Source of the DNA: an uncultured Akkermansia sp.
Lineage (GTDB): Bacteria; Verrucomicrobiota; Verrucomicrobiia; Verrucomicrobiales; Akkermansiaceae
Assembly (NCBI GenBank): GCA_947626635.1
Contig: CANQSY010000008.1
Location: forward strand, 1 to 38,888
Reading direction: 5' to 3'
DNA length: 38,888 nucleotides
A program made the translations under genes and the position numbers. The notes beneath the pieces are model-generated. The model was not told the DNA's origin. It saw nothing but the letters and a program-made list of their open reading frames with translations, and did no database searches. Below are positions 2,810 to 6,340 of the stretch, one piece after another (position 1 is the first letter of the stretch; every line of letters starts with the position of its first letter).

Positions 2810-3952
2810 ATGAAAACTCTCATCAAAAACGCTCATATCATCTCTCCGGGCATTGACATAACAGGCGGCAGTGTGCTGCTGGACGACTCCAAGGTCATTG
2901 CCGTCCTTCAACCGGGCGAAACAGCTGAAGCGGATGTGACACACGACGCCGGCGGTCATATGCTCATGCCGGGCTTTATCGACATTCATTCTCACGGCGC
3001 GGGGGGATGCGACACCTGCGACTGCAAGGTGGAAAGCATCCGCACGATCGCGGACTGCAAACTGAAGGAAGGTGTCACCACCTGGCTCCCCACCACCCTC
3101 ACCCTCGGCACCAATACCTTGGCCGATGTCTGTCGCTGTGTCAAAGAGTACGCCGCTTCTCCCAACGGTTCCAAGACGCCGGGCGTCCACCTTGAGGGTC
3201 CCTACATCAACCCCAAGCAGTGCGGCGCGCAGAACCCCGCCTTTGTGCGGCCGGCGGATATTGAGGAGCTCATGATGCTGCACGCCATCTATCCGGTGCT
3301 CAATATAACCCTTGCGCCGGAAATGCCCGGAGCAATCGACTTCATCGCTCAGGCTACGGCAGAGGGGATCACGTGCTCCGCCGGTCACTCCGCCGCCACC
3401 CACGCCGACTTTATGAAGGCCAAGGCCGCGGGGCTGCGCCGCCTCACCCACTTCTGCAACCAAATGAGCCCGCAGCATCACCGCGAAATCGGACTCGTCG
3501 GCTCCGGGATGCTCGACCCCGATATCCGCATCGAAATCATCTGCGACACGATCCACCTCTGCGCCGACATGCTCAATCTCACCTTCTCTCTCAAGCCCAT
3601 CGACCAGATGATCATGATCACGGATTCGCTGGCGTGCTCATGGATGCCGGATGGTCCCGGTCAGCTTGGCGGTCTGCCCATCATCGTGAAAAATGGGGTA
3701 GCGCGGTTGGAGAGCGGCAACCTCGCCGGCTCGACCCTTCGCTACGCCAAGGGTCTGCGCAATGTACACCGCATCACCGGACAACCCCTCTCCCAACTTG
3801 TCAAAGCTACCTCCCTCAACCAAGCGCTCAGCCTTGGTTTGCCCAATTTGGGTAAGATAGCTCCGGGCTACACGGCCGATCTCGTCCTGCTGGATGACGA
3901 GTTCGAGGTGCTCAAGACCTACATGGATGGCACTGTACGCTACGAAGCCTAA
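2810..3952 (+). CDS. nagA: N-acetylglucosamine-6-phosphate deacetylase
   Basis: MLMPGFIDIHSHGAGG metal-binding amidohydrolase motif, HLEGPYINPKQCGAQNP, CSAGHSAATHADF, THFCNQMSP; full length. Confidence 0.92.
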   Translation: MKTLIKNAHIISPGIDITGGSVLLDDSKVIAVLQPGETAEADVTHDAGGHMLMPGFIDIHSHGAGGCDTCDCKVESIRTIADCKLKEGVTTWLPTTLTLGTNTLADVCRCVKEYAASPNGSKTPGVHLEGPYINPKQCGAQNPAFVRPADIEELMMLHAIYPVLNITLAPEMPGAIDFIAQATAEGITCSAGHSAATHADFMKAKAAGLRRLTHFCNQMSPQHHREIGLVGSGMLDPDIRIEIICDTIHLCADMLNLTFSLKPIDQMIMITDSLACSWMPDGPGQLGGLPIIVKNGVARLESGNLAGSTLRYAKGLRNVHRITGQPLSQLVKATSLNQALSLGLPNLGKIAPGYTADLVLLDDEFEVLKTYMDGTVRYEA

Positions 3953-3987: not shown

Positions 3988-4737
3988 ATGCTCATCTCCC
4001 CGCTCGCAAAGAAGATCTGCGCTGCACGCGGCATTGATCCCACGCAGCTGCATGGCTCGGGTCCGCGCGGGCGCATCGTGGCGGCGGACCTGGCTGCCGC
4101 CGACTCCGCGCTCAACCGCACCGGGACCACCCTCGCCCTCCGGGAGTCGCACCCCACGCGCGAGCCGAAGGAGGGCTACTTCGTGTACGATGACACGGTT
4201 GACATGGACGCGTTGGCGCAAATCAGCCTTCCTATCGCCGTGCAGTGCGAGAAGCTCCTGGAGGAACGTTATTCTCTCTTTGACTATATCGTGCGGGCCG
4301 TCGTCAAGGCTTGTCTCTCAGCTCCGGAATGGAAAAGAGAAACCGTTGATCTCCTGCTTTTCGAGCACGACGGCGAAAAAATCACCGCCGTCTCGGATGC
4401 CGCCGCCAAATCCATCTACCGCCTCGCTAAGGAAATCGGGAAAATGCCCCCTCCCCCCGACTTTCACCCCCGTATCGTGGTCTGCGACACGCACACCGCC
4501 CGCGCTCGCGTAGCTGATGTTCTCCACACCGACAACCGACCGGACTTCGCCTTCGTTGTGCGCGGCGACTCGTCCAAAGACGACATCCGAGCGGGCGGCG
4601 ACAATCTCTCCTCCTACAACCTCGCCTACACGTTTTACGCCGCAGAGGAGGCTGTCTCCCCGGAGGTCGCCAATCGCATCGCCACAGAACTCCACGCCCT
4701 CCTTTTCTCCCCTGTCCGTCTCCTCCTCATTGCCTAA
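3988..4737 (+). CDS. 2-oxo acid dehydrogenase E2-like protein with N-terminal E3-binding (PSBD) domain and degenerate catalytic domain, no lipoyl domain
   Basis: N-terminus LISPLAKKICAARGIDPTQLHGSGPRGRIVAADL is a canonical peripheral-subunit-binding domain; C-terminus LAYTFYAAEEAVSPEVANRIATELHALLFSPVRLLLI aligns with the E2 C-terminal LSYDHRVVDGA...L..L..P..LLL region. Confidence 0.75.
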   Translation: MLISPLAKKICAARGIDPTQLHGSGPRGRIVAADLAAADSALNRTGTTLALRESHPTREPKEGYFVYDDTVDMDALAQISLPIAVQCEKLLEERYSLFDYIVRAVVKACLSAPEWKRETVDLLLFEHDGEKITAVSDAAAKSIYRLAKEIGKMPPPPDFHPRIVVCDTHTARARVADVLHTDNRPDFAFVVRGDSSKDDIRAGGDNLSSYNLAYTFYAAEEAVSPEVANRIATELHALLFSPVRLLLIA

Positions 4738-5095: not shown

Positions 5096-6340
5096 ATGAA
5101 GACGACCAAGACGATAGATATGCCGGTAGCGACGGAAGCCGGATTGGATTACCTGAGAGATGATGCGGACATGCCGCATGAGCTCATGACACTCAATATG
5201 GGGCCATCGCACCCGGCCACGCACGGTGTGCTGCGTCTCAAACTCGTTGTCGATGGTGAGGAGATCGTGTCGTGCGACCCGGTGATAGGGTATCTGCACC
5301 GCGGGATGGAAAAAATAGCTGAGAATTGCCACTACAACCAATTTGTCGCCTACACGGATCGCTTCGATTACCTCGCCCCCATGAGCAACAACATTGCATA
5401 CGCCTGCGCCGTGGAGAAGCTGCTGGGCTGGGAACTGCCGGAGAGGGGGCAGGCGATACGCGTGCTCTGTGCAGAGCTTTCGCGCATCTCCTCCTATTTC
5501 CTGGGACTGGGGGTGTACGCGATGGACACCGGGGCAATGACGGTCTTCCTGTACTGCTACGAGGAGAAGGAAAAGGTTCACAACTTTTACGAGAAAATAT
5601 GCGGCGCGCGCTTTACCTCCAGCTACACGCGCATCGGCGGCATGACGCGCGACTTGCCCAAGGGTTTTGAAAAGGAGGTCCTGGCCTTCTGTGACTCGGC
5701 GGAAAAGACAGTGGATGAATTAAAGCGCCTTCTGCTGCACAACAAGGTCTTTATCGACCGCCTCGTCGGGGTGGGCGTCATGACGCGCGAGATGGCCTTG
5801 CAGAACGGCATGACCGGTCCCAACTTGCGCGCCAGCGGGGTGAAGCGCGACTTGCGCAAGACCAACCCCTATCTCGGTTACGAGAAGTACGAGTTTGACG
5901 TGCCCGTAGCGCAGGAGGGCGACTGCTACGCCCGCTTCCAACTCCGCTTGGAGGAAATCCTGCAATCGGTCCGCATCATCCGCCAGGTATGCGACACCAT
6001 GCCGAGCGGCCCCATTTGCGTGCAAAATCAATGGGGAGTCCTTCCGCCTAAAGAAGAAGCGCTGCAAGGGATGGAGGAGCTCATCCGCCAGTTTATCGTG
6101 AGCACGCAATGCGTCAACGCCCCGGTAGGACAAGTCTTCTTCGCGGCGGAGAACCCGAAGGGCGAGCTGGGCTTTTTCCTGGATTCGTTAGGGGGAGGCT
6201 TGCCGAACCGACTCAAGATGCGCAGCCCCTCCTTCTGCACCCTCTCCGTCTTACCGGAGCTCCTGCCCGGCCACCTCATCAGCGACATCGGCGCCATCCT
6301 GGGGTCCTTCGATTTCGTGCAGGGCGAATGCGACCGCTAA
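5096..6340 (+). CDS. nuoD: NADH-quinone oxidoreductase subunit D
   Basis: LNMGPSHPATHGVLRLKLVVDGE, GYLHRGMEKIAE, DRFDYLAPMSNNIAYACAVEKLLG; C-terminal DIGAILGSFDFVQGECDR. Confidence 0.96.
   Translation: MKTTKTIDMPVATEAGLDYLRDDADMPHELMTLNMGPSHPATHGVLRLKLVVDGEEIVSCDPVIGYLHRGMEKIAENCHYNQFVAYTDRFDYLAPMSNNIAYACAVEKLLGWELPERGQAIRVLCAELSRISSYFLGLGVYAMDTGAMTVFLYCYEEKEKVHNFYEKICGARFTSSYTRIGGMTRDLPKGFEKEVLAFCDSAEKTVDELKRLLLHNKVFIDRLVGVGVMTREMALQNGMTGPNLRASGVKRDLRKTNPYLGYEKYEFDVPVAQEGDCYARFQLRLEEILQSVRIIRQVCDTMPSGPICVQNQWGVLPPKEEALQGMEELIRQFIVSTQCVNAPVGQVFFAAENPKGELGFFLDSLGGGLPNRLKMRSPSFCTLSVLPELLPGHLISDIGAILGSFDFVQGECDR

Follow-up and report, generated by a model that had tools for sequence, protein, structure and literature searches.

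A conserved and probably inactive derivative of the pyruvate dehydrogenase E2 in Akkermansia, a candidate docking adaptor

The window analysed here, a stretch of 38,888 nucleotides from an uncultured Akkermansia sp., encodes downstream of nagA a protein that resembles the acyltransferase (E2) subunit of a 2-oxoacid dehydrogenase complex and yet appears unable to act as one, raising the question of where such a protein comes from and what it does. Its features are collected in Table 1. The earlier note on this DNA had described an ORF that opens directly with a peripheral-subunit-binding domain (PSBD) and has no lipoyl domain, and this is borne out: the PSBD, at 42.7 bits against a Pfam E3_binding cut-off of 23.7 (45.6 bits in a whole-genome scan), is the only Pfam domain of the window protein, with no match to a lipoyl domain or to the acyltransferase family PF00198, and no lipoyl remnant is present upstream of the gene in any of the three frames. 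A PDB sequence search with the protein retrieves the PSBD of pyruvate dehydrogenase (PDH) E2, together with a second, weak match to part of the E2 core.

Table 1. Features of the pseudo-E2 locus (positions in the window; E2p, E2 of pyruvate dehydrogenase)
Feature	Position	Strand	Remarks
nagA (by eye), conserved upstream neighbour	2810..3952	+	Ends 35 bp before the pseudo-E2 gene
Pseudo-E2 gene (PSBD and apparently inactivated acyltransferase-fold core)	3988..4737	+	249 aa, ATG start, ORF
PSBD, residues 2-35	3991..4092	+	Pfam PF02817, E 6.3e-11
Low-confidence linker from PSBD to core, residues 36-57	4093..4158	+	AlphaFold pLDDT <50 for residues 40-51
Apparently inactivated E2 acyltransferase-fold core, residues 58-249	4159..4734	+	Alignment to sister-genus E2p; Foldseek
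New helix motif S-x-P-I-A-x-Q-C, residues 80-87	4225..4248	+	Conserved in family, absent from E2p
Cys166-Asp167, replacing catalytic-loop Ser-Asn of E2p	4483..4488	+	Alignment
Degenerate active-site segment AAEEAVSP (E2p: DHRVVDG)	4639..4662	+	Alignment
nuoD (by eye), chance downstream neighbour	5096..6340	+	Adjacency in the window alone

Alignment of the pseudo-E2 family (51 sequences, alignment A2) with ten active E2p of sister genera confirms the earlier reading that the His and the Asp-Gly of the active site have been replaced. The catalytic His column holds Glu in the window protein and Thr, Ala or a gap elsewhere in the family, the catalytic Asp column is mostly Pro or Ser, and the Gly that follows is Glu, Ala or Pro; the Ser-Asn of the catalytic loop, found in 10/10 E2p, is Cys-Asp in 51/51 pseudo-E2 sequences. 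The core can be aligned with that of sister-genus E2p but is without the MRRIIADRL segment as well as Ser-Asn and DHRVVDG, and orthologues reach only 14.6-18.5 bits with PF00198, below its cut-off of 23. Of the marks of an active dihydrolipoamide acyltransferase E2, the window protein shows the E2-core fold (see below) but no HxxxDG motif, no PF00198 score at or above the cut-off and no lipoyl domain with its lysine. The family is thus predicted to be catalytically inactive, and the family-wide loss of His, Asp and Ser-Asn supports this well. The new conserved Cys-Asp in place of Ser-Asn could be taken to mean that the protein is still an acyltransferase whose active site has moved, but this is highly improbable, given that the segment corresponding to HRxxDG contains no conserved His or Asp, that the VGVSVAVAVDDGLVTP strand region of E2p is deleted in the pseudo-E2 alignment, and that the Cys166 position is Ala (Ala-Asp) in genome G144. 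The core has also acquired a motif of its own, S-x-P-I-A-x-Q-C, where E2p have R-x-Q-[IV]-N-x-Q-A; it is kept in 30/30 of an unbiased ortholog set, on which its conservation was counted because the ortholog search patterns overlap two motifs, and is missing solely from the G071/G153 lineage. Orthologues were recovered from contigs with an alignment as query, the single window protein giving none.

The predicted structure is that of an E2 core. The AlphaFold model (pLDDT 80, pTM 0.72), built for the window protein from 51 sequences, has its best Foldseek matches in the PDB among E2 cores, with E down to 3e-10 and a TM-score of about 0.5, and these include the models 6h60 and 7r5m of human and fungal E3-binding protein (E3BP); a score of that size means that the fold is correct while the geometry is not close. 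The model of the A. muciniphila form agrees with that of the window protein in the core, although its lipoyl part is of low confidence because just four sequences cover it.

The origin of the family is indicated by its phylogeny. An IQ-TREE analysis places the pseudo-E2 family as monophyletic (support 100) and sister to the E2p of Akkermansiaceae (99), with the functional E2s of Akkermansia itself falling apart from it. Sister genera encode a strongly matching PDH E1a (253-280 bits), and no PDH-type E1a was found in the Akkermansia searched (59 genomes plus G100, G191, G224 and G227). What Akkermansia retains is a different type of E1a-E1b-E2 set, to which the A. muciniphila clade adds 2-oxoglutarate dehydrogenase. 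From the sister position and the missing PDH-type E1a we conclude that pseudo-E2 is an orphaned, inactivated E2p, and we are almost certain that it is a constrained, inactive derivative of that enzyme. The E2p of sister genera are its closest relatives by tree and alignable core, and share their order of lipoyl domain, PSBD and core (PF00198 in E2p) with the pseudo-E2 of A. muciniphila; they differ in being active, with DHRVVDG, Ser-Asn and, in several loci read, pdhA-pdhB neighbours, none of which pseudo-E2 has.

Full-length relatives are confined to Akkermansia in a protein search of 195 genomes of the family Akkermansiaceae, the matches elsewhere being PSBD portions of longer ORFs, of which those inspected are full-length E2s. 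Within the genus a profile search finds orthologues in 63/76 species genomes, including A. muciniphila and A. glycaniphila. Reading frames are open across the genus, dN/dS between close ortholog pairs of different species is 0.02-0.14, and constraint acts on the PSBD and, slightly more strongly, on the core. That active site, lipoyl lysine and then the whole lipoyl domain disappeared step by step, and that the gene itself is gone from several genomes, would suit a functionless remnant or a decaying piece of a split E2, but we hold this to be most unlikely: the dN/dS values contradict it, the frames are open, and newly gained, near-invariant residues (S-x-P-I-A-x-Q-C and Cys-Asp) point to a selected function rather than to erosion. 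The same dN/dS values, with the absence of a lipoyl ORF upstream, led us to reject the decaying split E2 that the earlier note had weighed, and its description of a catalytically dead, repurposed E2-like protein is upheld by the residue losses, the E2-core fold, purifying selection and genus-wide conservation. The G071/G153 lineage (L143 and L145), whose core has drifted the most, departs from this pattern of constraint: its core is diverging fast and the PIAVQC motif is gone, with a PSBD that remains near consensus.

The absence of a lipoyl domain is not general to the family. Orthologues in A. muciniphila have an apparently intact one with an ETDKA motif (64 bits in Pfam); in G144 (L071) the motif reads QTEYA, the lipoyl Lys being replaced by Tyr, and this domain appears to be an intermediate in the loss of lipoylation; A. 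glycaniphila, G128 and the clade of the window have no lipoyl domain. As these last group together on an rpoB tree, the domain was probably lost once. In G147 (L136/L022) a lipoyl part lies upstream, apparently in another frame, which may reflect either a genuine frameshift or a fault in the assembly. The lipoyl motif of the A. muciniphila pseudo-E2 (L141:9716-9950) reads IETDKA, a motif common to many bacteria, and presumably resembles the corresponding motif of mammalian PDC-E2, which is the autoantigen in primary biliary cholangitis.

The genomic position offers a possible clue to function. The earlier note had placed the gene between nagA and nuoD, away from E1 and E3 genes. The first neighbour is fixed: in 58/58 loci that extend far enough (a count that includes a few genomes twice), nagA immediately precedes the gene in the same orientation, at a gap of 15-332 bp; the second is without meaning, nuoD being found beside the gene at 0/61 other loci, and a link to the nuo operon was accordingly discarded. 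A simple consensus scan finds no promoter-like site between nagA and the pseudo-E2 gene, and the two are probably co-transcribed. No E1 or E3 gene occurs among the window ORFs examined, as had been noted; in the window genome, contig C54 carries E1a-E1b-E2 and contig C2 carries Lpd, and the pseudo-E2 gene shows linkage to nagA and none to E1, E2 or E3 genes. Farther upstream of nagA, a 771-aa ORF (positions 243-2558) has ankyrin-like repeats by eye.

This linkage underlies the main rival to the reading that we favour below. Pseudo-E2 could be a pseudoenzyme that is expressed together with nagA and has been repurposed for amino-sugar catabolism, with a remodelled pocket (Cys166-Asp167 and the S-x-P-I-A-x-Q-C helix) that binds a new ligand or partner and a PSBD that serves some other use or self-association. 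Besides the invariant neighbour, it has in its favour that near-invariant rather than random residues have taken the place of the former active site, that the core is constrained like the PSBD, and that some genomes have a 2-oxoacid dehydrogenase complex without pseudo-E2. We nevertheless consider it rather unlikely, since the family as a whole has retained the PSBD motif and, within it, two of the three basic hot spots, since the G071/G153 lineage lost the new motifs yet kept the PSBD, and since pseudo-E2 is absent wherever that complex is absent.

The last point rests on the distribution of the remaining complex. The window genome encodes a single E1a, a single real E2 and a single Lpd. Across the genus, pseudo-E2 is present in 63/68 genomes with an E1ab-E2 complex and in 0/8 without (Fisher 7e-8, phylogeny ignored), and among genomes at least 90% complete in 49/52 and 0/4, respectively (Fisher 1e-4, phylogeny again ignored); genome incompleteness alone would lead one to expect 0.56 joint absences. 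Complex-less genomes retain Lpd and mostly the glycine-cleavage H protein (GcvH), but not pseudo-E2. The co-loss rests on one clade of four and four incomplete MAGs, one of which (G216) is unplaced on the rpoB tree. The clade (G185, G187, G191 and G195) has no E1a or E2 of any kind but keeps GcvH, as well as Lpd in the three members searched for it (G185, G187 and G195). Its sister on the rpoB tree, G124, has lost pseudo-E2 and kept the complex, so that in this clade pseudo-E2 was apparently lost before the complex. Two near-complete genomes at least, G100 and G124 (99% complete), have the complex without pseudo-E2, which shows that pseudo-E2 is dispensable there and not indispensable to the complex. 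The association is real in the data and of moderate strength. Pseudo-E2 shows no association with GcvH (p = 1), and a link to glycine cleavage was dropped for that reason.

The sequence of the PSBD is compatible with either E3 or E1 as partner. The domain is better recognized in pseudo-E2 (mostly 38-56 bits) than in the real E2 of the same genomes (mostly 24-34 bits), which carries its own PSBD. Two basic hot spots, Lys or Arg at position 9 and Arg or Lys at position 29, are kept in 51/51 sequences, whereas the third is relaxed (Ala in 18, Glu in one and Gln in one of the 51); this third position we take to be the equivalent of the main E3-contact Arg of characterized PSBDs. The nearest PSBD sequences in the PDB to that of the window are those of mammalian E2p, not E3BP, and the window has Lys-Lys at the two corresponding positions. 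The PSBD of mammalian E2p is of the E1-binding type. These similarities, and the lack of selectivity of bacterial PSBDs between E1 and E3 (PMC10156792), would allow an adaptor whose PSBD recruits E1a-E1b, so that the remaining complex carries more E1; this is improbable, because the PDH-type E1 with which the domain co-evolved is gone, so that it would have to dock a foreign E1, while a single Lpd serves the whole genome. E3 is the more likely partner on these grounds. The E3-recruiting scaffold suggested in the earlier note is a plausible candidate role: a PSBD that is the best-recognized domain and the co-occurrence with the complex speak for it, and the unconserved E3-contact position, the resemblance to mammalian E2p and the ability of PSBDs to bind either subunit speak against.

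The reading that we favour is that pseudo-E2 is a PSBD docking adaptor for the remaining 2-oxoacid dehydrogenase complex. The ancestor of Akkermansia would have lost the PDH E1 subunits and retained the E2p gene beside nagA; the acyltransferase site of the retained protein would then have been dismantled and, in the lineage of the window, the lipoyl domain lost as well. We infer that the PSBD would hold a peripheral subunit, most likely E3 (Lpd) and possibly E1, and that the core or its surface would attach pseudo-E2 to the one remaining E1a-E1b-E2 complex. Strong selection and a retained partner-docking domain despite lost catalysis make an adaptor probable, and we give the mechanism as a whole an even chance. 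The more specific proposal is a bacterial analogue of E3BP that arose independently of the eukaryotic protein, when E2p became inactive once the PDH E1 had been lost, and that brings Lpd to a different 2-oxoacid dehydrogenase complex, doing so in the lineage of the window without a lipoyl domain; it is put forward tentatively, as somewhat doubtful.

Like eukaryotic E3BP (PDHX, protein X), pseudo-E2 derives from an E2, is apparently inactive and combines a PSBD with an E2-fold core, in A. muciniphila in the full lipoyl-PSBD-core order, and judged from its residues it has the inactive acetyltransferase-homologous core by which E3BP is defined (PMC10156792). It differs in being bacterial and in deriving from Akkermansiaceae E2p, and in the window it also has no lipoyl domain, its binding of E3 and attachment to a core being predictions. 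E3BP is part of the pyruvate dehydrogenase complex, whereas these genomes encode another E1ab-E2 complex and no PDH-type E1a for pseudo-E2 to serve. The sister relationship to Akkermansiaceae E2p (99%), in a tree built without eukaryotic E3BP, argues for a separate origin, and with E3 specificity putative and no PDH-type E1a in the genome we do not class the protein as an E3BP. E3BP is regarded as a eukaryotic gene, the E1 and E3 of bacterial complexes sharing one PSBD on E2 (PMC10156792, 2023), and neither a bacterial counterpart nor the pseudo-E2 gene turned up in the literature searched, which did not extend to subscription papers and preprints. If the proposed role is correct, a genus-wide bacterial pseudo-E2 adaptor would mean that the invention represented by E3BP had been made independently in bacteria, and the surviving forms (lipoyl domain intact, lysine lost, domain lost) would provide a natural series bearing on why cores lose catalysis. 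The presence of the gene in A. muciniphila makes direct testing possible, and metabolic models would be misled if pseudo-E2 were annotated as 'E3-binding' or as an E2.

KGD4/MRPS36 is non-catalytic and joins E3 to an E2 core whose E2 has no PSBD. It resembles the proposed role in being a non-catalytic E3 adaptor, but is an unrelated small protein with neither PSBD nor E2 fold; it serves as E3 adaptor in the 2-oxoglutarate dehydrogenase of eukaryotes (PMC9974300). A link of pseudo-E2 to 2-oxoglutarate dehydrogenase through a PSBD-less SucB was considered and is not general; PF00198 matches in the window genome are limited to its E1ab-E2 complex, and sister genera combine PSBD-less SucB with an intact E2p. 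In the SucB (E2o) ORFs of Akkermansiaceae that were read, including that of A. muciniphila (L277-L282, L036, L045 and L037), no PSBD is seen by eye, and the lipoyl domain or domains and core follow the layout of eukaryotic E2o.
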